Below, piece by piece: positions 1 through 46,019 of a DNA stretch of 46,019 bases. Made by a program: the position numbers and the translations under genes. Under the pieces are notes generated by a model, which saw nothing but the letters and a program-made list of their open reading frames with translations, was not told the DNA's origin and searched no databases. The first letter of the stretch is position 1. Every line of letters starts with the position of its first letter. Source of the stretch: a virus; IMG/VR virus record IMGVR_UViG_3300045952_000136, positions 1 to 46,019 of that record; one strand, written 5' to 3'.

Positions 1-127
1 TGGCTAGGCGATGCCGTGCGGCGACTCCAGGCCGACCACGCAGCGATCCTCGCCCGGCTCCTGCGCGCGGAGCAAGACCTCCAGGATTCCATGCGCGAGC
101 GGATCGCCGCCGATGCGCTGGCCGCCC
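1..127. repeat. Terminal direct repeat, left copy (circular contig overlap)
   Basis: The first 127 bases recur without a mismatch at 45893-46019. An exact odd-length overlap of 127 is what a de Bruijn assembler leaves when it closes a circle with k=127, so this is most likely an assembly overlap and not a packaged terminal repeat. The non-redundant unit is then about 45,892 bp. A biological direct terminal repeat cannot be fully excluded, but the lambda-type terminase argues for cos ends. Confidence 0.9.
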
Positions 128-300
128 GCGAGCACCGGGAGCTGCGCGACGAGTACCTCGCCGGCTACCGCAAGCTGGAGGAAAAGCTCGATGGGCTCAA
201 GACGTGGGCCCTCGTGACGCTCGCGGCGCTCGTGCTCAACCTCATGATCTTCATCGTCAGCCAGATGGGCAAGGTGCTCGGTGGTCTCGGTCCTCGATAA
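1..300 (+). CDS. Small coiled-coil/membrane protein, 3' part of a gene spanning the circle join
   Basis: Read around the circle, the gene starts at ATG 45869 and ends at TAA 298-300, giving about 107 residues; within this window it appears as two pieces. The N-terminal 75 residues are charged and helical (heptad-like Leu/Ala and Arg/Glu). One hydrophobic segment (LKTWALVTLAALVLNLMIF) follows, with a short tail. This topology occurs in some holins and in phage membrane adaptors. It heads a row of five membrane-anchored genes just after the tail genes. No family was recognised; a holin role is only positional inference. Confidence 0.75.
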   Translation, partial: WLGDAVRRLQADHAAILARLLRAEQDLQDSMRERIAADALAAREHRELRDEYLAGYRKLEEKLDGLKTWALVTLAALVLNLMIFIVSQMGKVLGGLGPR

Positions 301-1054
301 GCTCGCCGTTCTCGGGCGCTCCGGCTTGCTCTTGGCCGGCGTCGCCGCGCTGCTCCTGGTGGGGCTCCTGGTGCCGTCAGCCATACGCCAGATCTATTGG
401 CTCGCACAGTCCGAGCGCATCATCGAGGAGACCGCCGATCCCGTGATCCTTGACTACGTGGTCGATCCGAATTTCCCGACACCGATCCCGCGGACGGCCT
501 GGGCGGCAGGGCAGACGCTCTACATCCAGCGGTCCGTCTGCGTCTATCAGCGCGTGACGGGCAGCGTGGAGCGCGCCATCGTGGACACCGCGCGGATCGA
601 TTTGGGCGCCGTGCCGCTCTCGGGCATCCTCGAGCCGGGGCCAGGCGACTACGACGCCAAGGGGAAGCTCAAACCGCCGCCCTGGTGCGGGACGCGGATC
701 GGCTCCGTCACCATCCCCGCCTTCATGGCGCCGGGCCCGGCCTACGTGTCGGCGCGCATCGACGCGCACCTCAACCCGCTCCGGCCCCATGTGTTCATCC
801 CGTTGCGGCCCGCGCCGTTCGTGGTCGAGTCGTCGCCGCTGCGGTCGGAGCTGGAGACGACGCGCGAGCGGACGCGCGATCTGCGGGAGGCGCTTGACGC
901 GCGGACCCTTCTCCTGACGCGCAAGCTGGACCTGCTCCTGGAGCGGATGCGCGATGCGGAGCGGACGCTGGAGCGCGTCGAGTCGTATCATCGGCTACTG
1001 GACCAGCATCTCCGAGCGACGCGGGTGCTCCCGCCCGCGAAAGGGACGCCATGA
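281..1054 (+). CDS. N-terminally anchored envelope protein, paralogue of 1374-2045
   Basis: 257 residues from GTG, overlapping the previous gene by 20 bases. A hydrophobic segment at about residues 17-35 anchors the protein. A beta-rich domain with two cysteines (SVCVYQ, PPWCGTR) follows at about 60-190, and the last 65 residues are a charged coiled coil. The domain shares landmarks in the same order with the protein at 1374-2045: AGQTLYIQR versus AGRAMYILR, DLGAVPLSG versus DLGSIPAPS, and NPLRP versus NPVRS. The most likely location is the periplasmic face of the inner membrane. Function unknown; position suggests lysis or envelope remodelling. Confidence 0.8.
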   Translation: MVSVLDKLAVLGRSGLLLAGVAALLLVGLLVPSAIRQIYWLAQSERIIEETADPVILDYVVDPNFPTPIPRTAWAAGQTLYIQRSVCVYQRVTGSVERAIVDTARIDLGAVPLSGILEPGPGDYDAKGKLKPPPWCGTRIGSVTIPAFMAPGPAYVSARIDAHLNPLRPHVFIPLRPAPFVVESSPLRSELETTRERTRDLREALDARTLLLTRKLDLLLERMRDAERTLERVESYHRLLDQHLRATRVLPPAKGTP

Positions 1055-1377
1055 CCGATGGGGCCGACGACGACCGCGCGCCTGACCGCCTCGACAAGCT
1101 CGCCCTGGAGATCGAGGATTTGCGCGCGGCGATCCTGGCCCAGGGCGAGCTGATCCGCGTCATCGCGGACGGCCGAGTCGCCCTGGCCGAGCGGCGGATC
1201 TGTCGGGAGCAGGCGCCCGGCCGCCGGCTCCTGGACGTGATCGCGGGCGCCATCATCGCCGTGATGGCGATTGGTGCGCTACTCTACTACCTGGTGGTCC
1301 ATCCGTGGCCGGCGTGGGGCATCTACATCCCGCCGCCGCATTCGAGTCAGATCCCGACTGAGGAGGCTTATCGATGA
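1051..1377 (+). CDS. Single-TM membrane protein
   Basis: 108 residues; the start forms an ATGA overlap with the previous stop. Residues 1-60 are charged and helical (RLDKLALEIEDLRAAI) and likely coiled coil. One transmembrane helix (IAGAIIAVMAIGALLYYLVV) lies at about 64-83, followed by a Pro-rich tail. It sits between the two paralogous anchored proteins, so it may assemble with them. Holin-like topology, but no family recognised. Confidence 0.75.
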   Translation: MTDGADDDRAPDRLDKLALEIEDLRAAILAQGELIRVIADGRVALAERRICREQAPGRRLLDVIAGAIIAVMAIGALLYYLVVHPWPAWGIYIPPPHSSQIPTEEAYR

Positions 1378-2045
1378 CGTGGAGAGGCGCGCTCTACACC
1401 GTGGCAGCAACGGCCCTGATCGTCGGCATCGGCGGGGTGTACTACGCCGTCGCAGTCCAGCCGGACCCGCAGGTGCGGACCATCCCCATGAGTTGGCAGA
1501 CGCGCGAGACCGCGCGCCCGGTGCTCAATACCGGCGTCGACAAGGAGGGGCGGACCCTGGATCAGTTCGTCGCGGCCGGCGGGAAGAGTCAGGACTACCG
1601 GCCCGTGGAGACGACAACCGTCCAGGCGGGGCGGGCCATGTACATCCTTCGCTACCAGGAGTTTCGCAACAAGCTCGCGGAGCCCACAATCTCTCGCAAG
1701 CTCCTCTGCGGGAGAGTCACCATGCGCAACGGCGCCCCGGTGGTCGACGTGGACGGCATGGTCCCTTACGACCTGGGCTCCATCCCGGCGCCATCCCGCA
1801 CGGACGGCGCTGCGGTCAAGAATCACCCGACCCCGCTGCCGCGCTGGATCATGCTCGACGCGGAGGGCAAGGTGATCGCGCAACCTCGGACGTGTGTCTA
1901 TCAGGCGTCGGCGAAGTTCATCGTCAATCCTGTGCGGAGCACCGATCTCCAGTTCGCGGCGGTCGCCGTGACGGTCGCGCCGCCGTCGCCCGACAGCGCG
2001 CCGGCCGAGCGGACGGGCGCGGGGGCGCCGGGAGGGAAGCGGTAG
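1374..2045 (+). CDS. N-terminally anchored envelope protein, paralogue of 281-1054
   Basis: 223 residues; ATGA overlap with the previous gene. An N-terminal hydrophobic helix (ALYTVAATALIVGIGGVYYA) is followed by a beta-rich domain with two cysteines (KLLCGRV, PRTCVYQ) and a Pro/Gly-rich tail. The shared AG-x2-(L/M)YI-xR, DLG(A/S)(V/I)P and NP(L/V)R landmarks mark it as a divergent copy of the 281-1054 product, lacking that protein's C-terminal coiled coil. A disulphide-stabilised periplasmic domain is plausible. Function unknown. Confidence 0.8.
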   Translation: MTWRGALYTVAATALIVGIGGVYYAVAVQPDPQVRTIPMSWQTRETARPVLNTGVDKEGRTLDQFVAAGGKSQDYRPVETTTVQAGRAMYILRYQEFRNKLAEPTISRKLLCGRVTMRNGAPVVDVDGMVPYDLGSIPAPSRTDGAAVKNHPTPLPRWIMLDAEGKVIAQPRTCVYQASAKFIVNPVRSTDLQFAAVAVTVAPPSPDSAPAERTGAGAPGGKR

Positions 2046-2050
2046 GGGCC

Positions 2051-2275
2051 ATGCCGCCGTCGCCCTGGCTCAAGATGGCGATCACCGGCGTCGGGGTGTA
2101 CCTCGGCGGGGTGGCGGCGGCCTACCAGCTCGACCCGTGCCCGGCGAGCTGGCTCAAGTGGGTGATGGGGGGCGCCGCGCCGTTGGCTGGCTACCTCATC
2201 GGCTTCTGGCAGATCAACACGGCGATCCGGCCGCCGATCAGCTACGCCGGGGTGCCGCCGCGCGGGGGCGCGTAG
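2051..2275 (+). CDS. Small two-TM membrane protein, holin candidate
   Basis: 74 residues from ATG 2051, five bases after the previous stop. Two hydrophobic helices (ITGVGVYLGGVAAAYQL; KWVMGGAAPLAGYLIGFWQI) are joined by a short loop, the layout of a class II holin, with a short Pro/Gly tail. It is the last rightward gene of the membrane cassette and converges on the leftward block. Holin assignment is inference from topology and position; no recognisable endolysin is next to it. Confidence 0.65.
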   Translation: MPPSPWLKMAITGVGVYLGGVAAAYQLDPCPASWLKWVMGGAAPLAGYLIGFWQINTAIRPPISYAGVPPRGGA

Positions 2276-3281: not shown

Positions 3282-3590
3282 CTACTCCCACACCACCTCG
3301 TATCCCTTGCTCGTCAGGCACTCAGCGTATCGATCCCGCTGGCGGCTGGCCGCGAGCGGTCCGAAGATCGGCGCCACGGGCAGGAGCATCCCGAGGGACA
3401 TGGCGGTGATCCAGAACGTCATGGCCCCGCTACTGCGGCTCGTCTCCGAGATCTGGTCGTCGCAGGCCGCGCGGTCGGCCGCCAGCGTAGATGGTGGCTG
3501 ATCCTTGAGGGGGCGGACGTGGCGCGGATGAGGCGAGGCGCAGCCGGCTAGGGTGAGGACCAGGAGTGCGAGCGCGAGTGGGCGTCTCAT
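3282..3590 (-). CDS. Small lipoprotein
   Basis: 102 residues. The N-terminus is a lipoprotein signal with basic MRRP, a Leu/Ala core and the lipobox L-A-G-C17. After the Pro-rich region comes a second hydrophobic, Gly-containing segment (about residues 57-80), then CLTSKGYEV, a C-terminus seen in many small bacterial lipoproteins. It lies in the leftward block two genes after the repressor-like gene, so it may be made in the carrier state. Superinfection exclusion or surface modification is a reasonable guess. The second hydrophobic segment argues against an outer-membrane spanin. Confidence 0.75.
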   Translation of the reverse strand: MRRPLALALLVLTLAGCASPHPRHVRPLKDQPPSTLAADRAACDDQISETSRSSGAMTFWITAMSLGMLLPVAPIFGPLAASRQRDRYAECLTSKGYEVVWE

Positions 3591-3602
3591 GACGGATCTC
3601 CC

Positions 3603-3992
3603 TTACGCGATCAACGATATGATGAGCGGCCAGAGTGCGCGTAACCCATCGGTGCGGCGCGTGCGGCGCTGTGCCCGCCGCCGGGCGCGCTCCTCGGGCG
3701 GGACGATACCACGCTCGGGGACCGGCGGGGCGAGCGGTTTGCGCGGACCGGGCGGGGCCAGGTGGAACACGGTCCGCTCGACGACGACCGGCCCGGTGAT
3801 CGCGTCGGCCAGGCGCTTCGTCAAGTCGGCCGAGCGGAGATAGACCATCAGCAGATCCAGGAGCATCGCCGCGTCGATGGTGCCGCAGAGTTCGCTCCGG
3901 CTAGACCAGATTTCCAGCGTATCGCCAGCGCGCAGCGGCAGTCGGATCCCGCCATGCGCGAGGAAGCGAACGAAGACGTCGATGGCGGGCAC
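3603..3992 (-). CDS. Hypothetical protein with C-terminal hydrophobic segment
   Basis: 129 residues from GTG 3992; the ribosome-binding site is weak. The protein has a helical middle (MLLDLLMVYLRSADLTKRLADA), a Pro-rich stretch, an Arg-rich stretch and a hydrophobic end (LRALWPLIISLIA) that could insert in the membrane as a tail anchor. It lies 12 bases upstream of the lipoprotein gene on the same strand, and its stop overlaps that gene's ribosome-binding region. No family recognised. Confidence 0.6.
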   Translation of the reverse strand: MPAIDVFVRFLAHGGIRLPLRAGDTLEIWSSRSELCGTIDAAMLLDLLMVYLRSADLTKRLADAITGPVVVERTVFHLAPPGPRKPLAPPVPERGIVPPEERARRRAQRRTRRTDGLRALWPLIISLIA

Positions 3993-5282: not shown

Positions 5283-5464
5283 TGGCCGATCGACTGCCGC
5301 ATGTCGCCGTCCGCGCCGAAGGCGTATGGCTTGACGGTGTCAAGGTCCGCGGGCTCGTGACCTACGCTCTCCGGTCGCGCGGCCCTGACGCCGGCGATCT
5401 GGTGGCTGTGGAGTTGTCCCTGCTCTGCTACATGGAGCCGCTCAAGGTGGGGCCGGACGCATGA
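5282..5464 (+). CDS. Hypothetical small protein
   Basis: 60 residues from ATG 5282, which overlaps the previous stop by one base. It has a beta-like layout (HVAVRAEGVWLDGVKVRG, then LVAVELSLLCYMEPLKV). No family recognised. Its stop overlaps the start of the beta-helix gene. Confidence 0.5.
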   Translation: MADRLPHVAVRAEGVWLDGVKVRGLVTYALRSRGPDAGDLVAVELSLLCYMEPLKVGPDA

Positions 5465-6597
5465 TCCCCGCCCTCCTCTCCCTCCTCGCCATCGGCTGCA
5501 ACGGGCATACGGACGTCACGAGCGTCCTGCAGCGGCTCCTCGACCAGCCGGCGCAGGAGATCGTCCTGCCGGCGACGCCACAGCCGTGCATGGCTCGAAC
5601 GCTGCACCTCCGCGGCGACGGGCGGACGTTGCGGGGTGGCCACGTCAAGCTGATGCCCGGGACGAACGCCCCCCTACTCGTGGTCGCGGGTGACAACGCC
5701 ACGGTCAGCGGGGGCACCTGGGACGGCAACGCTGCCGGACAGACGGCCGGCGCCGAGCAGTGGGGCGTCGGCGTCATCACCGTGACCGGCGAATACCCGC
5801 ACATCTCCGGGGTGACCGTGCTCGACGCGCACTCGGTTGGTCTCGTGTTCACCGGCCTTCCCAACGGATACCTCATGTCGTTTGGGATGACGGAGCCCCG
5901 GCGAACCGTTGGCGGGCGCGTGGACATGTCCACGTTCCACCGTCCGCGGGGGACGGCCGTGCTCGCCGACGGCGCCCCTTGGACGATGGTGACGGACATC
6001 GCGGTCGTGGACTCGTGGGCTGACGGCGTGGTGTTCGCACGGGGCTCCCACCACTGGGTGATGACTCGATCCGTGATCGACTTCCGGGGGACGAGGGAGT
6101 GGCGGCCGATGCCGTGGGAGCAGTATTGCCAGTACGGCAGCGGCGTGACGGCGTGGGGCGATGCGACCGATGGGGCGCTCTCGCACGTCTGGATCTACGG
6201 CCCCGAGCAGCCTCGCCCCGACTGCCACCTGTTCATCGGCGTCAGCATGGCCAATGGATCGGATCGCTCCGTGGTCTCCCACGTCGAGGTCGTGATGGCT
6301 CCCGAGGATCGCGCGGAGTATTGCCTGGAGGCGGCCGACGTGTCGGACGTGGTGTATGCCTACTCGACCGTTCGCGCGTGCGAGAGCGCGCTGAGCCTCG
6401 GGGCGGGCTACTCGTCGTCGGTCCAGTCGCGCCTCCGCGTGATCGGCGGCCGCGTGAGCGACGCGGAGATCGGGGCGCTGATTCATGGGCGCGTCAGCGA
6501 CGTGCGCGTGGAGGGCGTGGCGTGGGACGGGGTGGACCGGGTGCTCTCGACGTGGGACGGCCCAGGCGCGCCCACGGACTACGAGGTGGCGCCGTGA
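5461..6597 (+). CDS. Right-handed beta-helix (pectate-lyase-like) protein
   Basis: 378 residues. The opening (IGCNGHTDVTSVLQRLLDQP, then IVLPA) matches the GD-x-(T/H)-D-x-T-x2-LQ-x-L-x-D start of pectate-lyase-superfamily phage proteins. Repeating short strands with V/I-x-G or V/I-x-V turns follow (NATVSGGTWDGN; ISGVTVLDAHSVGLVF; VVDSWADGVVF), typical of a beta-helix. Such folds occur in tailspikes and polysaccharide lyases. The gene is in the early operon, far from the tail genes, and the first 12 residues are hydrophobic enough to suggest export. Enzyme or adhesin is possible; no catalytic residues were assigned. Confidence 0.75.
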   Translation: MIPALLSLLAIGCNGHTDVTSVLQRLLDQPAQEIVLPATPQPCMARTLHLRGDGRTLRGGHVKLMPGTNAPLLVVAGDNATVSGGTWDGNAAGQTAGAEQWGVGVITVTGEYPHISGVTVLDAHSVGLVFTGLPNGYLMSFGMTEPRRTVGGRVDMSTFHRPRGTAVLADGAPWTMVTDIAVVDSWADGVVFARGSHHWVMTRSVIDFRGTREWRPMPWEQYCQYGSGVTAWGDATDGALSHVWIYGPEQPRPDCHLFIGVSMANGSDRSVVSHVEVVMAPEDRAEYCLEAADVSDVVYAYSTVRACESALSLGAGYSSSVQSRLRVIGGRVSDAEIGALIHGRVSDVRVEGVAWDGVDRVLSTWDGPGAPTDYEVAP

Positions 6598-7686: not shown

Positions 7687-7892
7687 TGCCCCTCCGCGCG
7701 ATCGCCGAGTGCTCGACCTGCCACCGGGACACGCGCTCTCGCCCGGCGACGCTGGCCGTCCGCATCGTGGTGACGCGCGACGACGGCCACGAGGTGGACG
7801 GCCAGGGCCAAGGCGACGTGCTCTGCTCGCCGGCCTGCGCGGAGCGATTTGCCGCGCGCCTGATCTGGCGCGCGTGGAGGGGGGAGACATGA
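7686..7892 (+). CDS. Small zinc-finger-like protein
   Basis: 68 residues. Two cysteine pairs, C-S-T-C near residue 12 and C-S-P-A-C near residue 50, frame a beta-hairpin (LAVRIVVTRDDGHEV), the look of a small treble-clef or TRASH-like finger. Function unknown. Coupled to its neighbours by one-base and ATGA overlaps. Confidence 0.55.
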   Translation: MPLRAIAECSTCHRDTRSRPATLAVRIVVTRDDGHEVDGQGQGDVLCSPACAERFAARLIWRAWRGET

Positions 7893-8662
7893 TCGCAGAG
7901 AGGCTTGACCAGATCAGCACTCTGTACCAGGGCAGCCACCAGCCCGACGGGCAGATGTGCGTGATGGAGGCGGCCGCCTACGTGGCCGGCGAGCCCTGGA
8001 GCGACCACCCGGCGTGCGTATCGCCGGTCATCGGGGCGTTCCTCCGGTCGTGGAACGACGCGCTGCCGGACGACGCCACGCGGACGCGCCTGCTCCGGCC
8101 GCTCATCGAGCCCATCCTGGGCACGCACTGCGACGTGGCGACTGAGAGTCGCCTCGCGTGGATGTGCGTCGACTGGCTGGCGCGCGTGCAGGCGCCGGCG
8201 TGGATGCGGCTGACGTCGGCGCTGTGCCCCTACACAGAAGGCTTGGCCGACCTGCCAGAGATCACCATCGACTCGTGGCCGTCCGCTCGTCCTCGGGTCA
8301 CTGCGGCCTGGGTTGCGGCCAGGGCTGCGGCCTGGGATGGGGCCGGGATTGCGGCCAGGGCTGCGGCCTGGGCTGCGGCCGGGGATGCGGCCGGGGTTGC
8401 GGCCGGGGCTGCGGCCAGGGCTGCGGCCTGGGTTGCGGCCGGGGTTGCGGCCGGGGCTGCGGCCGGGGCTGCGGCCGGGGATGCGGCCAGGGTTGCGGCC
8501 GGGGTTGCGGCCGGGGCTGCGGCCAGGGCTGCGGCCTGGGCTGCGGCCAGGGCTGCGGCCAGGGCTGCCCTCGCGTCGACAGTCGCGACCCTCCAGGAGG
8601 AGGCGGTGGCGCTGGTGCTGCGAATGTGCGCGGTGGCCAAGGGGGAGACGTATGGACGCTGA
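7889..8662 (+). CDS. Protein with conserved N-terminal domain and 4-residue Ala-rich repeats
   Basis: 257 residues, ATGA overlap. Residues 1-130 carry a sequence recalled from hypothetical proteins of high-GC bacteria and phages ([20 protein letters not shown], then [17 protein letters not shown]). Residues 138-225 are 22 tetrapeptide units of the form (A/V/D/I)-A-A-(W/R/G), encoded by the 12-bp array at 8301-8564. A short helical end ([15 protein letters not shown]) closes the protein. The repeats should form a long helix with Trp/Arg side chains at regular steps. Function unknown. Confidence 0.75.
8301..8564 (+). repeat. 12-bp coding minisatellite, 22 units
   Basis: Twenty-two consecutive units of consensus YTGCGGCCDGGG run without a gap, with a partial unit after 8565. 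Nearly all variation sits at two positions: unit base 1 (C/T/A) and base 9 (T/A/G). Both are non-synonymous in frame, giving Ala/Val/Asp and Trp/Arg/Gly. One unit (8337-8348, ATGGGGCCGGGA) is more diverged. Copy number may change by slippage in 4-residue steps without breaking the frame. Confidence 0.95.
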
Positions 8663-10842: not shown

Positions 10843-11411
10843 GCCCCAGCGACCTCCGGGGCCCGGCCCCGTGTGCTCGATGCGGGTACAATGGGCCCGG
10901 CTACTACCAGCCGGACACGCATCCGTGTGCTGTTGGCCTCCAGGGCCTCGGTCGTCCGATCTCCCGAGACGAGGCCCTGTCGACCAGCGCGGAGACGATG
11001 GCGCAGGCCGAGCAGCAGCGGGCCGATGCCCTCCGGGGCCCCGGCGAGGATTTCGGCCCCGACTTGACCGCAGAGGGACGAATCCCCGCGCCGGGAAGTG
11101 GCGGGGCGATAACCGACGCGCCTTACCTCGATGACCTGCGCCGAGGCTACGCGCCCGGCGACGCCGCACTGTACGCGCAGATCGACCGCCTCACGCGCGA
11201 GCGGGACGCCGTCGAGACTAAGCTGCGCGTCGCGCTGGAGGGCCTCCACGCGGCGAGCGCCCTCCTCCGGGCGGCGGAAGGGGAGCGGGACGTGGCCAGG
11301 GCGGCGCTCCAGACGGCCCACGACTGGATCGCCGGCGGCGTGGAGTACGACGCGGCCCAGGAGGCGCACTGGGAGGTCCGGGCGCGCCGGGCGCTCGGGA
11401 AGAACCCATGA
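10839..11411 (+). CDS. Hypothetical protein with N-terminal Cys knuckle and coiled coil
   Basis: 190 residues, ATGA overlap. A CARCGYNG knuckle plus a later Cys near residue 30 suggests a small zinc site. Residues 110-165 are a long charged helix (QIDRLTRERDAVETKLRVAL) likely to form a coiled coil, ending in a Trp-containing helix (AHDWIAGGVEYDAAQEAHW). No family recognised. Confidence 0.6.
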   Translation: MSPSDLRGPAPCARCGYNGPGYYQPDTHPCAVGLQGLGRPISRDEALSTSAETMAQAEQQRADALRGPGEDFGPDLTAEGRIPAPGSGGAITDAPYLDDLRRGYAPGDAALYAQIDRLTRERDAVETKLRVALEGLHAASALLRAAEGERDVARAALQTAHDWIAGGVEYDAAQEAHWEVRARRALGKNP

Positions 11412-11617
11412 GCGAAATGCCGGTGCTGGATCGACTGCGAGACGCAGCGGTACGGAACAGCGCCACCGTGATCTCGTCTGAGGATGCCGTGGCCCTGCTC
11501 GCGGTGATGCGCGCAGCGGCCGGCCTGATCGACGCCTGGGAGCAGACGCAGGACATCGACCATCCCGCGAATCGCGCGGTGCGGGCCGCCCTGGCCGCGC
11601 TGGAGCGGCCGGCGTGA
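11408..11617 (+). CDS. Hypothetical small helical protein
   Basis: 69 residues, ATGA overlap. All-helical in appearance (AVALLAVMRAAAGLIDAWEQ; NRAVRAALAALERP). No family recognised. Its position between the nuclease group and RusA suggests an accessory role in DNA metabolism. Confidence 0.5.
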   Translation: MSEMPVLDRLRDAAVRNSATVISSEDAVALLAVMRAAAGLIDAWEQTQDIDHPANRAVRAALAALERPA

Positions 11618-22250: not shown

Positions 22251-22252
22251 AG

Positions 22253-22408
22253 TTATGGCCCGCGTTGCCTCTCCCGCTTCTTCTCTCGCCACGCGCGGTC
22301 ACGCTTCTCCACTTCCGTCTTTGGCGTCCGCACCACCTTCCGCGCCAGGTCAACGAACTTTTCATACGGTGTCCGCGTGTCGGGCGTCGTGCTGGCCTCG
22401 TTCCTCAT
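22253..22408 (-). CDS. Small passenger protein of the IS element
   Basis: 51 residues from ATG 22408, chosen for the strong AGGAGG just upstream; longer in-frame readings have no such site. The sequence PYEKFVDLARKVVRTPKTEV, then an Arg/Lys-rich helix, resembles many small bacterial proteins of the type Y/E-K-F-x-x-L-x-x-K-V-x-x-V/T-P-K-x-E. Their function is not established here. Eight bases after the membrane-protein gene, so co-transcribed with it; it converges on the HEPN-like gene. Confidence 0.65.
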   Translation of the reverse strand: MRNEASTTPDTRTPYEKFVDLARKVVRTPKTEVEKRDRAWREKKRERQRGP

Positions 22409-22416
22409 GTGGCCTC

Positions 22417-22830
22417 CTACTGATGACTCGCGAGCCTGATGATAGTCGGCACCATCGCTCCGACCAGGACGGCTACACCGCAGAACGCCACGGCCTGCTT
22501 TGCCGCGAAGAGGTAGGTGCGGAAGCCGTAGAACTTGTCCGGTGTCCATCCTCTCAGCTCTCCGTCAAGTTCCATGGCGTTCCAAGTGTTGCACCCGTTG
22601 AGATATCCGACGAGATATTGCGCCCAGTCCAGAAGGAGCGCAACAAATGCCAAGGCTATGGCGACGAGAACACCCAGCGGCAAGACGCTGATGCGGTCGT
22701 TGGGTGTTACGAGGAATCCCCAGCCCACCGCGAGAATTCCCACACAGGTAGCTCGTACGAGAGTGCTTATTCGCGCCGAGATGTCATCAAGGTCTTTGGC
22801 TACATCGGTCTTGGTGGCTGTGTTTGGCAT
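22417..22830 (-). CDS. Multi-TM passenger membrane protein of the IS element
   Basis: 137 residues from ATG 22830 with a GAGG site. About three transmembrane helices are visible: VRATCVGILAVGWGFLV, VLPLGVLVAIALAFVALLL and AAKQAVAFCGVAVLVGAMVP, with a charged loop (DGELRGWTPDKFYGFRTY) between the last two. Paired with the 51-residue gene downstream. Membrane effectors are common in abortive infection, but no family is recognised. Confidence 0.65.
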   Translation of the reverse strand: MPNTATKTDVAKDLDDISARISTLVRATCVGILAVGWGFLVTPNDRISVLPLGVLVAIALAFVALLLDWAQYLVGYLNGCNTWNAMELDGELRGWTPDKFYGFRTYLFAAKQAVAFCGVAVLVGAMVPTIIRLASHQ

Positions 22831-23031
22831 GGCCTCATGCTACCTCATTTTGGGCCCCGGTCTGTCTGGCCTGGGTTGAATCGGCTTAGGTTCGTCTCTC
22901 CTGGTTGGGCCCGGCATCGGGCCAGGCCTTGGCTCTGGGCCCGGTTGCGGCCTGGGCCGCGCGGGTCGAAGTGGCGGCCGAGGTGCGGGTCTCACTGTGG
23001 GCGCTTCCCCCTCCCCTCACGGGGCTTACCC

Positions 23032-24006
23032 TCACGTCGTAGCTGGCAGCATGTCCTTGCCGGTCAGCGCGCGGTAGGTCACGCGCTTCCCGACCACGCG
23101 CCGCAGAACCTCCATGAACCGCGCGCCATCCGACGCCTTCCGCGTGTTGAATCGGAAGGCCTCTTCGTCCAGGTAGCGGAACAGGTGAAACGCTTCGACC
23201 GAAACGTAGGTGCCCTTGATCGCTCGCTTCAACAGCGTCCAGAAGTTCTCCATGCCGTTGGTGTGAATCTTCCCGTCCACGTACTTCTCGGCATGGTCAA
23301 TCACGCCGTGGGTGTACTCGGCCGCGAGCCCGTCGTAGGACTTGAGCGCATCGGTGTAGACGTTCGTGCCGGGCTCGACGTGCGCCTTGATCTCCGGCCG
23401 CAGCGTCTTCTTGCGGTTGTTCGGGACGTGCTTCACGCGGACCCGGGAGTGCCCGTCCGGCCCGTGGCGCTCCAGCAAGCCCATGACCGCGGACTTGCCC
23501 ATGGGGCCCGTGCCCTTGATCTTGGCGGCGCGCTTGTGCGCGTGCATGAAGCGAGCCTTGCCGCCAATGAACGTCTCGTCAACTTCCACGTCGCCGGCCA
23601 TCTTGTCAAAGCTGCCATCCTGCATCGCCAGACGAATGCGGTGCATCATGAACCACGCGGACTTTTGCGTGATGCTGAGCGCCCGCGCCACTTCGTAGCT
23701 GCTGATCCCGTTCTTGTCGCTGGCGATCATCCACATGGCCGCGAACCACTTCTCCAGCGGCAGCGGCGAATCCTCGAAGATCGTGCCGACCTTGGCCGAG
23801 AACTGGCGGCCGGGGTGCTTCTCGCGGCACGTCCAGAGACGACGAGTCGAGATGAAGGACGTGGCATCGCTGCCGCAGATCGGACACCGGACCACGCCAT
23901 CCGGCCAGCGAAGCTGGACCATGAACGAGAGGCAGATATCGGGATCGGAGAAGTAGCGGATGGCCTCTACCAGGGTCTCGGGGGCGGCCGGGGTGTTGTG
24001 TTCCAT
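23032..24006 (-). CDS. IS1595-family (ISXO2-like) DDE transposase
   Basis: 324 residues from ATG 24006; a longer reading to 24042 would cross the promoter. An N-terminal zinc ribbon (C41-P-I-C44 ... C60-x3-H64) is followed by helices, then the ISXO2 domain with all three catalytic residues: D143 (VEVDETFIGG), D219 (VYTDALKSY) and E253 (TNGMENFWTLLKR). The frame is intact, so the enzyme is probably active. The 3' end reaches GRALTGKDMLP-type residues typical of the family's end. Confidence 0.95.
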   Translation of the reverse strand: MEHNTPAAPETLVEAIRYFSDPDICLSFMVQLRWPDGVVRCPICGSDATSFISTRRLWTCREKHPGRQFSAKVGTIFEDSPLPLEKWFAAMWMIASDKNGISSYEVARALSITQKSAWFMMHRIRLAMQDGSFDKMAGDVEVDETFIGGKARFMHAHKRAAKIKGTGPMGKSAVMGLLERHGPDGHSRVRVKHVPNNRKKTLRPEIKAHVEPGTNVYTDALKSYDGLAAEYTHGVIDHAEKYVDGKIHTNGMENFWTLLKRAIKGTYVSVEAFHLFRYLDEEAFRFNTRKASDGARFMEVLRRVVGKRVTYRALTGKDMLPATT

Positions 24007-24013
24007 GCCCCTC

Positions 24014-24042
24014 AAGGTAGCAGGAGAGCGAGTGTGAGTCAA
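24014..24042 (-). promoter_or_regulatory. Transposase promoter reading inward from the right IS end
   Basis: On the minus strand TTGACT (24042-24037, inside the right inverted repeat) and TACCTT (24019-24014) are 17 bases apart, a reasonable sigma70 promoter. The start ATG follows 8 bases after the -10 box, so the leader is very short or absent, which would keep transposase levels low. Confidence 0.65.
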
Positions 24043-24055
24043 GTATATGCTTACC
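24033..24055. repeat. Right terminal inverted repeat of the IS element
   Basis: Reads TGTGAGTCAAGTATATGC then TTACC and is the inverted partner of 21373-21395 (19 of 23 matching). It carries the -35 box of the transposase promoter. Confidence 0.9.
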
Positions 24056-24063
24056 CAGTCGAG
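24056..24063. repeat. 8-bp target-site duplication, right copy
   Basis: CAGTCGAG, identical to 21365-21372. Phage reading resumes immediately after it with GCT CTG TGA. Confidence 0.92.
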
Positions 24064-24068
24064 GCTCT

Positions 24069-24254
24069 GTGAGCGACGACACGGCGGAAGGCGTTGCGGC
24101 GGCCGTGGCCGCTGAGGCCCGGCGCCACAAGGCCGAGATCAATGCCGGCCGCGTGAGCCGCGTTCTGATCGAGGCCCGTATCGGCCAGGATGGCGCGATC
24201 CATACGCGCCCCGCGAGGGTCCGCACAAGAAACTTGCAATCGGGGCGCGAGTAG
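24069..24254 (+). CDS. Hypothetical small helical protein
   Basis: 61 residues from GTG 24069. Before the insertion its start overlapped the stop of the gene at 21124 as GTGA; now translation must initiate on its own, with GAGG four bases upstream. The sequence is helical and basic (AAAVAAEARRHKAEINAGRV). No family recognised. The 157 bases that follow hold no gene; GGGGAGACGGG just before 24412 is the capsid gene's ribosome-binding site. Confidence 0.6.
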   Translation: MSDDTAEGVAAAVAAEARRHKAEINAGRVSRVLIEARIGQDGAIHTRPARVRTRNLQSGRE

Positions 24255-24411
24255 CGTAGCGTCCCGAATCGCGTAGTCAGCGACTGCTGGATGCCCCGCC
24301 TACGGGATGAGCCCGGCGCCGCTGGTGGACGTAGCAGGTGCCCCTGCTATCTCTGCCGCCGGTGTCCGGGCTTTTGTGCATTCAGCCTGCCGGCGGTCCC
24401 GGGGAGACGGG

Positions 24412-26448
24412 ATGAAGAAGGGCCGGCAGCAAGTAGCGGCGGACGGCGAGCGCACCGAGGATCTCCCGCGCCTCTCTCTCCGCGCCGACGTCCGCCCGGA
24501 GTCGATCGACGTCGAGGCCCGCACGGTCGAGGTAGTCTTCTCCTCCGGCGCCCCCGTCAAGCGATACAGTTGGGCGCTCGGCCAGCCCTACGTCGAGACC
24601 CTCTCACTGGAGCCGGGCCACGTCCGCCTCCAGCGCCTCAACAAGACCGGCCAATTTCTCGACTCGCACTCTTCCTTCCGGCTTGCCAATGTCCTCGGCG
24701 CCGTCGTCAAGGGGAGCGCGCGCATCGAGGACGGCCTGGGTGTCGCCACGGTGCGGTTCTCCAAGCGCGCCGACGTCGAGCCGATCTGGCAGGACATTCA
24801 GGATGGAATCATCCGCAACGTGAGCGTGGGCTACGACGTCCACAAGTACGAAGAGACCGCGGCCACGTCCGCGCAGCCGATGCGGCGCCACGCGATCGAC
24901 TGGGAGCCCTACGAGATCAGCGGCGTGCCGATGCCCGCGGACATGAACGCGCAGGTCCGCGATGCCCAGGCCCCGACCCATCCGTGCGTGATTGTCACGC
25001 GCGTCGAGGAGAGCACGAGCATGGACGAGACCGAACGCCCGAATCCCGACCCCGAGCCGCCTCAGCCGACCGACCCGACCGATCCGGGAGCGCCGCACGG
25101 GGCTGCGACACCGGCCGAGCGCCAGGCCGCGCAGACCGCCGAGCAGCGCGGGGAGATGGTGGAGCGCGCTCGCGTCGAGGGCATCATGCGTGCCGTGACC
25201 GCCGTGCGCCTGCCCGTCGAGCTCGCCGCCAAGCTCATCAGCGATGGCGCGAGTCTCGAGCGAGCCCAGGCCGTCGTGATCGAGGAAGTCTCCCGGCGCG
25301 GCAGTCTGGACCTCGGGCCGCGGCCCGGCGGGAGCGGGATCGAGGTCATCCGCGACGTCAATTCCCACGTCCGCGCGGGCATCACCAACGCCCTGCTGCA
25401 CCGGATCAAGCCCGAGTGGTTCAAGCTCGACGAGGTCGGGCGGCTGTATGCCAATCGGCGGATGATCGGCCTCGCCGAGTGCTGGCTCCAGAGCTGCGGG
25501 GCCCGCACCACGGCGATGTCGCAACTGGAGATTGCCGGGATCGCCCTCGGGCTCAGCATGCGGGCCGGGCTCCATACCACCTCCGACTTCACGAACATCC
25601 TCGCCGACGCGATGGGCAAGACTCTGCGCCGCGCGTACGATGAGGCGCCGCAGGTGTTCGCGCCGATCGTCAGCCGCAAGGAGCTGGTCGACTTCAAGCC
25701 CGTGAAGCGGACCCAGCTTTCCGAGGCCCCGGCGCTGGACCTCGTGAACGAGCATGGAGAATTCACCAGCGGCACGATGGGCGACGCGAAGGAGCAGTAC
25801 CAGCTCGGGACCTACGGCAAGACCTTCGGCATCACGCGCCAGGCACTCGTCAACGATGACCTCGATGCCTTCTCGAATCTCGCTGTGAAGTTCGGCCGAT
25901 CCGCGCGCCAGAAGGAATCGGATCTCGTCTGGGCGCAGATCACCGGCAACCCGACGATGGGCGACGGCGTGGCCCTGTTCCACACCGCGTCCCACGGCAA
26001 CCTCGCGGGCTCCGGTGGCGCCATCGACATCACCACGATCGGCGCGGGCCGCACGGCGATGGGGCTCCAGAAGGGGCTCGCGGCCGTCGAGTACCTGAAC
26101 ATCGAGCCGCGATTCCTGATCGCGCCGAAGGGCAAGCAGACCATCGCTGAGCAGTTCGTCTCGACGCAGCTCCTCGCGACGGCCGCCACCAGCGTCAACC
26201 CGTTCGCGGGCAAGCTCACCGTCATCTCCGATCCGCGCCTCGACGCGAACAGCGCGACGGCCTGGTATCTCGCGGCCAGCGTCGACCAGGTCGATGTCAT
26301 CGAGCTGGGATTCCTGGCCGGTGAGATGGGCCCGGTCGTCGAATCGCAGGTGGGCTTCCGCGTCGACGGCATCGAGGTGAAGTGCCGCCACGACGTGGCG
26401 GCGAAGGTCATCGACTGGCGCGGGCTCTACAAGAATCCGGGCGCCTAG
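24412..26448 (+). CDS. Prohead protease / major capsid protein fusion
   Basis: 678 residues from ATG 24412, preceded by GGAG. Residues about 20-190 are an HK97-type prohead protease with candidate catalytic H86 (FLDSHSSFRLANVLG) and S138 (IIRNVSVGYDV). Residues 200-300 are a charged Pro/Glu/Gln-rich linker, a likely delta/scaffold part. From about 330 on lies an HK97-fold capsid (GRLYANRRMIGLAECWLQSC; FTSGTMGDAKEQYQLGTYGK; ITRQALVNDDLDAF). The fusion is a known arrangement in phages. An internal in-frame ATG 25021 with GAGGAG nine bases upstream could yield a separate 475-residue capsid form. Confidence 0.9.
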   Translation: MKKGRQQVAADGERTEDLPRLSLRADVRPESIDVEARTVEVVFSSGAPVKRYSWALGQPYVETLSLEPGHVRLQRLNKTGQFLDSHSSFRLANVLGAVVKGSARIEDGLGVATVRFSKRADVEPIWQDIQDGIIRNVSVGYDVHKYEETAATSAQPMRRHAIDWEPYEISGVPMPADMNAQVRDAQAPTHPCVIVTRVEESTSMDETERPNPDPEPPQPTDPTDPGAPHGAATPAERQAAQTAEQRGEMVERARVEGIMRAVTAVRLPVELAAKLISDGASLERAQAVVIEEVSRRGSLDLGPRPGGSGIEVIRDVNSHVRAGITNALLHRIKPEWFKLDEVGRLYANRRMIGLAECWLQSCGARTTAMSQLEIAGIALGLSMRAGLHTTSDFTNILADAMGKTLRRAYDEAPQVFAPIVSRKELVDFKPVKRTQLSEAPALDLVNEHGEFTSGTMGDAKEQYQLGTYGKTFGITRQALVNDDLDAFSNLAVKFGRSARQKESDLVWAQITGNPTMGDGVALFHTASHGNLAGSGGAIDITTIGAGRTAMGLQKGLAAVEYLNIEPRFLIAPKGKQTIAEQFVSTQLLATAATSVNPFAGKLTVISDPRLDANSATAWYLAASVDQVDVIELGFLAGEMGPVVESQVGFRVDGIEVKCRHDVAAKVIDWRGLYKNPGA

Positions 26449-39206: not shown

Positions 39207-40799
39207 ATGTGGACCCGCCAGAAGCCGCCCGTCGGCGCCGCGCGCATCAACTGGAGCCACCCGACGACCAGGGGGCTGTTGCACGGCGTTGTCTTGGCGG
39301 AAGGCGCGGGAATGCCGTACGATGCCGTGCGCGCCGTCGCTGGAACGCTCAACGGTGGCGCGGTCTGGTCTGTCGGGAGCTTGGGGGCGCACATCGCCTG
39401 CGCGACGGCGGGCTATCTTCAATACGCCCATACCGCAGCGCACCTGGCAACGACCGCATGTACAGTCTTCGTGCGCGCAGCACTGCCGGCCGCGGGCGTC
39501 AGGCGGGGACTGTTCTGTAAATCAGGTCTTGATTTCGGCACCGGCGTACTCCTCGAAGTCGGTAACAATGTACACGGACCGAGTTTGAAAGTGAATGCGG
39601 CTGTAGAGGCAGAAACATCGGATAGCGATATGCGCGGGAGTGGCCCGCACTCTATCGTCGGAACGTACCAGGCCGGTGGGTCGTCCAATATCTACGTCGA
39701 TGGGCGACTCCGGGCGACCGCGACGGCGACAGCTACCTCAATCACGTCCACCGGGAATGACTTGTATTGGGGGTCGCTGCGACCCGACAGAACGGCGTTT
39801 GATCTCACGGGCGGGTTCATTGATGTCGCCTGGTATTTCGCGCGCGCACTCGGTGGCGACGAGATCGTAAACCTGCATCTGCGCCCTCTGGCCTTCCTCG
39901 TCCAGCCCCGGCGGCGGACGTACTCCATTCCGGGCGGGGGTGCCGCGGCGGCCCTCGACGGCACGAGCAGCCTTGCGCTCTCGGCCAGCGCGTCCCTCAC
40001 CACCGCCATCCCGCTCGCCGGCTCCTCGTCTCTGGCGCTCACCACCACCTCCAGCCTGACGACGGCCATCCCGCTGCAGGCGTCCGCCGTCCTGGCGCTC
40101 GCAACCTCCGGCGATCTCACGACGCAGATTCCGCTCGCGGCAACGTCGGCCCTGGCCCTCGCGGCCAGCGGCACGCTCACGACCGCAATCCTCGTGGAGG
40201 GCGCCTCCGCGCTGACCCTCTCCGCGACTGGCGCACTGACGACCGCGATTCCGCTCGCCGCGAGCGCCACCCTCGCGCTGTCGGCGGAAGCAGACCTCAC
40301 GGCGCCTGGCGCCTCGATGCAGGCCGAGGCCGCGCTCGCCCTCAGCGCCAGCGGCACGCTCACCACCGCGATTCCGCTGGGCGGCACCGGGGCGCTCGCG
40401 CTGGCGGCCACCGGCGCCCTGACGACAGCCATCCCGCTCGCCGGCGCCGCGGCCCTCGCCCTGACGGCCACGGGCGATCTGACCGCCATGACCGGCATCG
40501 CCGGCAGCGCCACGCTCGCCCTGACCGCCACCGGAGCGCTGACGACGGGGATCATCCTGGCCGGCTCGTCGGCGCTCACGCTGACTGCGACCGGCGGACT
40601 CCTGACCGGGATTCCGCTGGCGGGACTGTCGACGCTGCAACTGCTGACCGCGGCCGACCTCGCGCCCCTGACCTTCCTTCCGGTCGCGAAGGAAAACCAA
40701 CTCGCGATGCTGATTGCGCGCCACGAGGTGCGAATGTGGGCCGCCGAGCATGACCTCGACCTAGACGACAACCTCCACCGGGTGGAGTTGCTCTCCTGA
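39207..40799 (+). CDS. Tail fibre/adhesin with LamG-like domain and 20-residue repeats
   Basis: 530 residues. Residues 1-235 look like a concanavalin/LamG-type domain (CTVFVRAALPAAGVRRGLFC; IVGTYQAGGSSNIYVDGRLR; GGFIDVAWYFARALGGDEI). Residues about 256-485 are roughly twelve repeats close to L-x-L-x-A-x-G-x-LTTAIPLAG-x-x-A. A short charged end (LIARHEVRMWAAEHDLDLDD) follows. LamG domains bind sugars, and the repeats could form a stalk or beta-solenoid. Likely host-binding. Confidence 0.8.
   Translation: MWTRQKPPVGAARINWSHPTTRGLLHGVVLAEGAGMPYDAVRAVAGTLNGGAVWSVGSLGAHIACATAGYLQYAHTAAHLATTACTVFVRAALPAAGVRRGLFCKSGLDFGTGVLLEVGNNVHGPSLKVNAAVEAETSDSDMRGSGPHSIVGTYQAGGSSNIYVDGRLRATATATATSITSTGNDLYWGSLRPDRTAFDLTGGFIDVAWYFARALGGDEIVNLHLRPLAFLVQPRRRTYSIPGGGAAAALDGTSSLALSASASLTTAIPLAGSSSLALTTTSSLTTAIPLQASAVLALATSGDLTTQIPLAATSALALAASGTLTTAILVEGASALTLSATGALTTAIPLAASATLALSAEADLTAPGASMQAEAALALSASGTLTTAIPLGGTGALALAATGALTTAIPLAGAAALALTATGDLTAMTGIAGSATLALTATGALTTGIILAGSSALTLTATGGLLTGIPLAGLSTLQLLTAADLAPLTFLPVAKENQLAMLIARHEVRMWAAEHDLDLDDNLHRVELLS
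39972..40665 (+). repeat. About twelve 60-bp (20-residue) repeats in the fibre gene
   Basis: Period 60 bp, one repeat per 20 residues, consensus LALxATGxLTTAIPLAGxSA. Conserved LTTAIPL cores alternate with variable turns. One unit (near 40290-40330, LTAPGASMQAEAA) is diverged. The repeats are degenerate at DNA level, so the array is old and kept by protein selection, unlike the nearly identical array at 8301-8564. Confidence 0.85.
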
Positions 40800-42772: not shown

Positions 42773-43765
42773 GTGGCCGACAACGTAACCGCGAACGCCG
42801 GATCGGGTGGGGCAAGCTTCGCCACGGACGACATCGCGGGTGTCCATTACCCGCGCTCGAAAGTCGTCTGGGGCCCGGACGGGACAGCGAACGACACCGA
42901 CGACGCGAGCGGCAAGCGGCTCCCGGTCAAGATCGCAGAAGCTCTCCCTGCCGGCGGAAATGCCATCGGCAGCGTGACGGCGAACGCCGGCACGAACCTC
43001 AACACGTCCGCGCTCGCCCTGGAGGCCGGCAACCTCGCCACGCTGGTGACCCTGACCACGACCATCGACAACGTGCTTGACTCCGTCGCCGCGTCACTCG
43101 CCGTCCTCGACGATTGGGATGAGACCGACCGCGCGAAGGTCAACCCGATCGTCGGCCAAGCCGGAGTCCAAGGCGGCTCCGGCGCCGTGAGCGCGACGAC
43201 GCAGCGGGTAGTACTGGCCACCGACGTCGCCCTGCCCGCGGGCACCAACAACATCGGCGACGTGGACGTCCTGACGATCCCGGGCGTGGGCGGCACGGTG
43301 GCGCACGACGATCCCGACAGTGGCAATCCAGTGAAGGCGGGCGGCGTGGCGCGCACCTCCGACCCGACCGCGGTGGGCAACGCCGATCGGGTCAACTTCA
43401 TCGCGACCCTCGGCGGTAAGCAGATCGTTCACCCCTACGCGCTGCCCGAGAACCTGCTCTCTGGCGTGACCGCCGCGATCACCGGCACGGGCGACACCAG
43501 CGTGATTGCCGCGCAAGGCGCGGGGGCGAGAATTTACGTGACACACATTCTCGTCACCAATTCTCACGCGACCGTTGGCACCGTCGTCGAGATCAAGGAC
43601 AACACGACCGTCATCTATCGCGGCTACGCGGCCCCTGCGGGCGGCGGCTTCTCGGTCACGCTCCCGGCGCCGTTGCGGCTCGGCGACAACGTGGCTCTGC
43701 AGGCCGCGAACGTCACCACGGGGAGCAATACCTACGTGAGCGCGAGCGGCTTCAAGGCGCCATGA
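42773..43765 (+). CDS. Virion structural protein with C-terminal jelly-roll-like domain
   Basis: 330 residues from GTG 42773. The N-terminus (SFATDDIAGVHYPRSKVVWG) is a recurring phage structural opening. A helical segment (ALEAGNLATLVTLTTTIDNV) probably trimerises. The C-terminus (ARIYVTHILVTNSHATVGTV, VEIKDNTTVIYRGYAAP, GGGFSVTLPAPLRL) is a beta domain often seen in virion decoration or tail proteins. Likely tail-tip fibre. Confidence 0.75.
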   Translation: MADNVTANAGSGGASFATDDIAGVHYPRSKVVWGPDGTANDTDDASGKRLPVKIAEALPAGGNAIGSVTANAGTNLNTSALALEAGNLATLVTLTTTIDNVLDSVAASLAVLDDWDETDRAKVNPIVGQAGVQGGSGAVSATTQRVVLATDVALPAGTNNIGDVDVLTIPGVGGTVAHDDPDSGNPVKAGGVARTSDPTAVGNADRVNFIATLGGKQIVHPYALPENLLSGVTAAITGTGDTSVIAAQGAGARIYVTHILVTNSHATVGTVVEIKDNTTVIYRGYAAPAGGGFSVTLPAPLRLGDNVALQAANVTTGSNTYVSASGFKAP

Positions 43766-45868: not shown

Positions 45869-46019
45869 ATGGCAGCCGATGAGCCGGCGGGGTGGCTAGG
45901 CGATGCCGTGCGGCGACTCCAGGCCGACCACGCAGCGATCCTCGCCCGGCTCCTGCGCGCGGAGCAAGACCTCCAGGATTCCATGCGCGAGCGGATCGCC
46001 GCCGATGCGCTGGCCGCCC
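45869..46019 (+). CDS. 5' part of the gene spanning the circle join
   Basis: ATG 45869 opens MAADEPAGWLGDAVRRLQAD and continues, through the 127-base overlap, into position 1-300 in frame; the full product is about 107 residues. The start follows the tail-hub stop by 34 bases, with only a weak ribosome-binding site. See the entry at 1-300 for the description. Confidence 0.75.
   Translation, partial: MAADEPAGWLGDAVRRLQADHAAILARLLRAEQDLQDSMRERIAADALAA
45893..46019. repeat. Terminal direct repeat, right copy (circular contig overlap)
   Basis: Identical to 1-127. It shows that the molecule closes on itself; one copy should be dropped when the genome is circularised. Confidence 0.9.

Follow-up and report, generated by a model that had tools for sequence, protein, structure and literature searches.

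What is accomplished by a run of overlapping genes for predicted membrane proteins that lies behind the tail genes of an uncultured phage, in a genome in which profile searches recognise no cell wall hydrolase? The genes in question cross the two ends of the window, that is, the whole stretch of DNA analysed, which comprises 46,019 bases with 69% G+C from the virus record IMGVR_UViG_3300045952_000136. An exact repeat of 127 nt is common to both ends (45893-46019 equals 1-127), as is usual for circular assemblies; the window is thus circular, with a unique genome length of 45,892 nt. Family searches identified a terminase of the GpA type, a portal of the lambda family, a phage capsid protein with a match to a prohead protease family and lambda-like tail tube proteins as well as an ERF recombinase, a PD-(D/E)XK nuclease, a D12 methyltransferase, a primase-like protein and a LacI/Cro-like regulator. 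The window is thus the genome of a tailed double-stranded DNA phage, presumably with siphovirus morphology. A close relative was not found in GenBank, where the best terminase matches are approximately 35% identical.

Several elements of the window deserve description in their own right. Within a gene for a tail or fibre protein, 39969-40648 contains direct repeats of 60 nt; a 137-nt reference occurs there eight times, distributed over two blocks. At 8242-8637, the open reading frame (ORF) 7889-8662 contains an array of 12-nt tandem repeats that encodes repeats rich in alanine, arginine and tryptophan such as AARAAAW. A transposase gene of the IS1595 family (23032-24006, minus strand) resides between the portal and protease genes and the capsid gene; exact inverted repeats of 14 nt were not found in 22251-24420. 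Among the genomes tested, the transposase comes closest to the phylum (GTDB) of the entries G005 and G006, matching 13 of 199 and 10 of 149 of its genomes, two sets that are largely the same genomes drawn twice, at E-values up to 1e-60 with a best identity of 62%. Among Pseudomonadota, a phylum taken from the Rhodanobacter title of entry L029, 3 of 200 genomes match with a best identity of 42%. The labels of G005 and G006 conflict, with Bryobacter (Acidobacteriota) versus Acidimicrobiia (Actinomycetota), and one of them must be wrong; the insertion element is weak evidence for a diderm and a monoderm host alike.

Gene structure and position of the cassette

Five genes on the plus strand, here called G1 to G5, constitute the locus. 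G1 starts with ATG at 45869, runs to the window end at 46019 and continues at 128-300; within its remainder at 1-300, positions 1-127 duplicate 45893-46019 and only 128-300 is new sequence, so that joining over the 127-nt repeat gives a single frame of 107 amino acids. G2 (281-1054) starts with GTG and encodes 257 amino acids with an N-terminal transmembrane (TM) segment, a putative exported domain and a long C-terminal helix. G3 (1051-1377; 108 amino acids) has a charged N-terminal part, one TM segment and a C-terminal tail, and G4 (1374-2045; 223 amino acids) an N-terminal TM segment rich in glycine, alanine, serine and threonine before a putative exported domain. G5 (2051-2275; 74 amino acids), possibly a holin-like protein with two TM segments, is a weak member of the set. 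Overlaps of 20 nt between G1 and G2 and of 4 nt both between G2 and G3 and between G3 and G4 suggest translational coupling; G5 starts 5 nt past G4. The gene run across the join proposed in the preliminary description is real for G1 to G4, given the terminal repeat, the uninterrupted frame of G1 and the recurrence of G1 to G4 in a related phage.

Upstream, a gap of 34 nt separates G1 from the end of a gene at 43762-45834 (plus strand) that would encode the tail tip as judged by position and size; its product has no match in Pfam and is 48% identical over 559 amino acids to a protein of the relative in the same relative order. This neighbour places the cassette at the presumed end of a late tail operon, and expression late in infection would follow from the position behind the tail genes. 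Downstream, an opposite-strand gene (3603-3992, minus strand), 44% identical to L001 11698-12072 of the relative and conserved in place, bounds the block shared by the two phages. Neither terminator or promoter signals bounding the block nor a promoter-like site of its own on the cassette strand were found.

Such a position also invites the explanation that the products belong to the virion or to DNA entry, either as membrane proteins associated with the tail that enter the envelope when DNA is delivered or as assembly factors. The location directly behind the tail-tip gene and the conservation along with it speak for this role, but a tailed virion without an envelope would be an unusual place for four TM proteins, and the proteins match no virion family, which together render it improbable.

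Membrane segments, topology and predicted folds

Hydropathy was assessed as the Kyte-Doolittle mean over 19 residues with a threshold of 1.6. G1 to G4 each possess one hydrophobic segment: residues 76-94 in G1 (2.36), between a charged helical N-terminal part and a tail of 13 residues, 17-35 in G2 (2.51), 60-78 in G3 (2.54) and 10-28 in G4 (2.02). The preliminary description, which saw a membrane anchor in every gene product and a holin-like protein with two TM segments in G5, is borne out for these four, while the two hydrophobic stretches of G5 do exist but stay below the threshold with best means of 1.34 for the first and 1.11 for the second. As segments at or above 1.6 are present in 13 of the 68 called genes of the window and shuffling the labels around the circle produces four such genes in a row in 5% of cases, membrane clustering alone is weak evidence; it is conservation, not clustering, that is strong evidence for the cassette.

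The number of lysine and arginine residues before and after the TM segment is 4:2 in G1, 2:2 in G2, 5:0 in G3 and 1:1 in G4. By this charge bias the N-terminus is predicted to be cytoplasmic in G3 and probably also in G1, while the flanking charges of G2 and G4 favour neither side. Exactly two cysteines are found in G2 (Cys87 and Cys136) and two in G4 (Cys112 and Cys174), all conserved in the relative, and each pair would fit a disulfide formed in an oxidising compartment.

The same description had assigned coiled coils to G1, G2 and G3 and beta domains to G2 and G4. In a crude test of heptad periodicity against shuffled sequences, the C-terminal helix of G2 stands out (P 0.025), but G1 and G3 do not exceed shuffles (P 0.25-0.72 over four tests). 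Structure prediction, which had been suggested as a check, is unreliable because only two sequences exist: the AlphaFold models are poor, with a mean pLDDT of 49 for G4 and 45 for G2, and the sole well-predicted part is the G2 helix at residues 190-247 (block pLDDT up to 86). Strands appear in the beta-rich model of G4 at this low confidence, while nothing reliable is seen in the middle part of G2, so that beta domains in the two proteins are plausible as far as the models go. Fold searches with the G4 model, which the poor model makes uninformative, gave a best Z of 4.7 against the PDB and no viral match at E < 0.001. A possible resemblance of G2 and G4 to Ig-like proteins of other phages was not confirmed and has been set aside. 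Duplication within the cassette is not claimed, neither for G2 and G4 (hhalign probability 8%; Smith-Waterman score 50 versus a shuffle mean of 30.6, with 2 of 300 shuffles as high) nor for G1 and G3 (hhalign probability 0.2%).

Conservation in a single relative

A scan of viral contigs with G4 reached one relative, the locus L001 in a circular record of 53,292 nt, which also carries a 127-nt terminal repeat. There, G1 to G4 keep their order and overlap by 23, 4 and 4 nt, an extra ORF of 54 codons is located between G2 and G3, and 24 nt separate G1 from the end of the preceding gene. With blastp at E-values up to 1e-4, 14 of the 68 window genes match the relative, and the four highest identities belong to the cassette, with 78% for G4 (L001 10001-10669), 71% for G1 (L001 8437-8757), 71% for G3 and 60% for G2 (L001 8735-9514), followed by 53% for the next gene, 34% for the tape measure and 26% for the capsid protein. 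In tblastn comparisons, G3 is 67% identical, and an identity of 75% is attained by a 68-aa segment from a different tail gene. Nonsynonymous and synonymous divergence (dN/dS) amount to 0.20/0.82 in G1, 0.36/1.07 in G2, 0.20/0.71 in G3 and 0.19/0.90 in G4, which equals ratios of approximately 0.25, 0.33, 0.28 and 0.21. The C-terminal half of the TM segment and the whole tail of G3 (ending VVHPWPAWGIYIPPPHSSQIPTEEAYR) are identical in both phages despite a dS of 0.71. As the cassette provides the best four of 14 shared genes at such low dN/dS, it represents a unit under strong constraint, and the alignments identify G1 to G4 as real genes inherited together under purifying selection.

G5 is not clearly kept in the relative as judged by sequence comparison. 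In its place, L001 has two other small hydrophobic ORFs, one of which (L001 10686-10919) is weakly similar to G5 (33% over 51 amino acids, pairwise E 7e-4 with composition correction off) and comes closest to NF041949, a family of membrane proteins whose role is not stated (E 2.8e-7, 30.5 bits versus a cut-off of 33); the other matches PHROG 13256, of unknown function, at 1.6e-5. Elsewhere in the relative, the head-morphogenesis protein (L043 10759-12459) has an apparent intein (PF14890, E 2.4e-7; the member was identified by eye), and a 700-aa fibre-like protein (L001 1549-3651) has a signal-peptide-like start, which is odd for a virion protein. Signal-like N-termini and, by eye, a repetitive beta-helix look are shared by the products of 5461-6597 in the window, without a match in Pfam or PHROG, and of L001 4430-5743 and L001 7390-8412, the latter without a match in PHROG.

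Scans of viral contigs with single proteins, alignments and DNA patterns found no true relative beyond the contig of L001, and those with G2 alone and with the tail tip alone gave no matches; three other viral and 37 genome stretches with the pattern WPAWGIY match that motif only and are chance hits. A genome contig scan with the alignment A1 gave nothing. GenBank phages contain no match for window G4, for G1, G2 and G3 of the relative, for the tail tip or for the tape measure, and plasmids none for G4 of the relative. Profile searches with A1 and A2 over 396 genomes matched 15 and 22 genomes at E-values up to 0.1, approximately the number expected by chance, and the matches inspected were noise-like. 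G1 to G4 have no family match at a meaningful E-value in Pfam and PHROGs and none in NCBIfam and PADLOC, where G1 was represented by the copy of the relative; G5 has no family match in Pfam, PHROG and NCBIfam. By these searches, G1 to G4 constitute new families known to date from two uncultured phages. In uncultured phages generally, it is common to find orphan genes at this place in the genome.

The pattern of sharing bears on superinfection exclusion or receptor masking, whereby a complex in the membrane of an infected cell or a lysogen would block DNA entry by phages with the same tail tip. Exclusion of such phages would explain why the cassette travels with the tail module and not with the head module: the cassette and the tail-tip region are common to both phages, while the relative offers no match to the window terminase (TerL) and the majority of head genes show no relation. 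A fixed target in the envelope would fit the high conservation, and exclusion proteins are commonly built as inner-membrane proteins with an exported domain. On the other hand, genes that follow the tail genes and lack a promoter-like site on their own strand would be expressed late, known exclusion systems usually consist of one small gene, and PADLOC recognised none of the 10 cassette proteins of both phages at E-values up to 1 (with G1 from the relative). On balance, this role is considered rather unlikely while deserving attention.

Possible role in lysis and comparison with known systems

The reading tentatively preferred here, at somewhat less than an even chance, is that G1 to G4, probably together with G5, form a late inner-membrane complex that acts on the host envelope and most likely controls or executes lysis. 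In such a complex, the charged helical parts of G1 and G3 would face the cytoplasm and their short tails the outside, while G2 and G4 would be anchored by the N-terminal TM segment with disulfide-bearing domains in the periplasm, across which the long helix of G2 could reach. The four proteins may associate during translation of the overlapping genes and, at a set level or upon a signal, the complex would open the envelope or make it unstable; the candidate pore-former is G5 or, in the relative, the pair of small ORFs. The wall-cutting step is not explained by the cassette and would need a diverged endolysin or host enzymes. What the sequences show is the gene structure, the overlaps, one TM segment per protein, the conserved order and purifying selection; late expression, the topology of G2 and G4, the disulfides, the formation of a complex and all steps of lysis are inferred.

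In the preliminary description, the cassette was put forward as a possible unusual lysis or envelope-remodelling system in a window without lysozyme, amidase or peptidase motifs, and this absence is upheld by profile and six-frame searches of both genomes at the sensitivity used. In the window, Pfam identified no wall hydrolase among the best 25 of 29 families for 75 chosen ORFs at E-values up to 0.01; PHROG returned 72 families for the same ORFs, of which the best 25 were examined. For a subset of 43 ORFs at E-values up to 0.05, the sole lysis label among the best 25 of 29 PHROG families was 'Rz-like spanin' at 0.034, for a lipoprotein, and none of 12 NCBIfam families was lytic; G1 lies outside both ORF sets and was searched alone in Pfam and PHROG. 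In the relative, none of the 24 and 20 Pfam families for 41 and 20 proteins is lytic, and PHROG gave 48 families for the 41 proteins, of which the best 25 were examined. Six-frame searches with PF00959 in the window and with PF01510, PF01464, PF08291 and PF01551 in both phages gave no match, while the controls were positive in 3 (PF00959), 6, 8, 4 and 12 of 14 genomes, respectively. G1 to G5 themselves contain no peptidoglycan hydrolase domain in Pfam, PHROG and NCBIfam up to E 1 (in NCBIfam with G1 of the relative instead of that of the window) and match no holin, spanin or endolysin family at a meaningful E-value; two holin matches in the relative (E 0.076 and 0.13) are at chance level. Neither a clear endolysin elsewhere nor homologues known as virion or host-takeover proteins, the findings that would contradict the proposal, were encountered, which is a weak test with orphan families. 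No hydrolase is thus recognisable in either genome, though one may still be encoded.

A diverged endolysin among the orphan genes, with G5 or another small ORF as the holin and G1 to G4 in an unrelated envelope role, would constitute ordinary lysis from elsewhere in the genome. Many ORFs between 5000 and 16000 lack a family, endolysins can escape profile searches and, upstream of the cassette, the relative also encodes secreted proteins to which no role is assigned (L001 7390-8412). Yet no hydrolase family emerged from Pfam with the 75 window ORFs (best 25 of 29 families), G1 and 61 proteins of the relative, nor from NCBIfam with the 43 window ORFs or from the five controlled six-frame searches, and this arrangement is judged rather unlikely. 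That the phages lack a hydrolase of their own altogether, with G1 to G4 and the small hydrophobic proteins disabling or redirecting host envelope enzymes, appears very improbable; if true, it would be a multi-gene counterpart to the single-gene, hydrolase-free lysis of small phages.

For a role of the cassette in lysis speak its place next to the tail-tip gene, the four genes, their order and near-identical overlaps, kept under strong constraint though head genes barely match, the charge bias of G3 and G1, the conserved cysteine pairs, the plan of one TM segment plus a putative exported domain in G2 and G4 and the lack of any other recognised lysis gene in either genome. Against it stands that lysis proteins usually evolve fast, while G1 to G4 are the best-conserved genes of the pair; moreover, five genes without a hydrolase are an odd lysis cassette, lysis families give no meaningful match, the flanking charges of G2 and G4 favour neither orientation and the block is not bounded by terminator or promoter signals. 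What endures of the original proposal is an overlapping, conserved membrane block behind the tail tip with no endolysin in sight, while assignment to a holin, spanin or endolysin family is not obtained. Should the cassette be a lysis system, its families would be absent from the searched profile libraries and belong to phages without a detectable wall hydrolase, and it would become testable whether tailed phages lyse diderm hosts via membrane proteins and host enzymes. In the case of exclusion or entry, a conserved four-protein envelope complex would be tied to one tail type. Either way, G1 to G4 represent constrained new families.

Among established lysis systems, class II holins with two TM segments resemble G5 and L001 10686-10919 in being short with two hydrophobic stretches, but the hydropathy of G5 is marginal and a holin family match was not obtained. 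The TM segment of G4, 47% of which is glycine, alanine, serine or threonine, is reminiscent of SAR endolysins; unlike these, G4 is without the catalytic domain of any known endolysin. With the two-component spanins Rz/Rz1, G2 shares an N-terminal TM segment and a long C-terminal helix potentially spanning the periplasm, but has an additional large, non-helical middle part of approximately 130 amino acids of disulfide type. Also in contrast to Rz/Rz1, the cassette has no lipoprotein partner, the nearest candidates being encoded on the opposite strand in both phages (3282-3590 in the window; 11169-11426 and 11423-11701 in L001). The LPAM_1 lipid-attachment match occurs only in 3282-3590, beyond the cassette; the Rz-like spanin matches of this gene (E 0.034-0.18) lie mostly over the N-terminal signal part, and its product is weakly similar to that of L001 11423-11701 (26%, pairwise E 1e-5).

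The class III holin T of phage T4 is described in the accounts cited as a protein with one TM segment, a large periplasmic domain and N-in, C-out topology, whose antiholins bind on its periplasmic and cytoplasmic sides (PMC9636201, PMC11413866). In comparison with T4 T, G2 and G4 show no sequence match, apparently contain beta or mixed domains and have no endolysin found beside them; profiles A1 and A2 searched against PDB sequences returned only unrelated chains at E-values up to 10. Resemblance to T4 T lies in the N-terminal TM segment followed by a sizeable C-terminal domain, taken as periplasmic, and resemblance to T with RI and RIII in several interacting envelope partners in one phage, as proposed for the cassette. 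Without membership in this class being claimed, by analogy G2 and G4 together with G1 and G3 could work similarly to T4 T and its antiholins.
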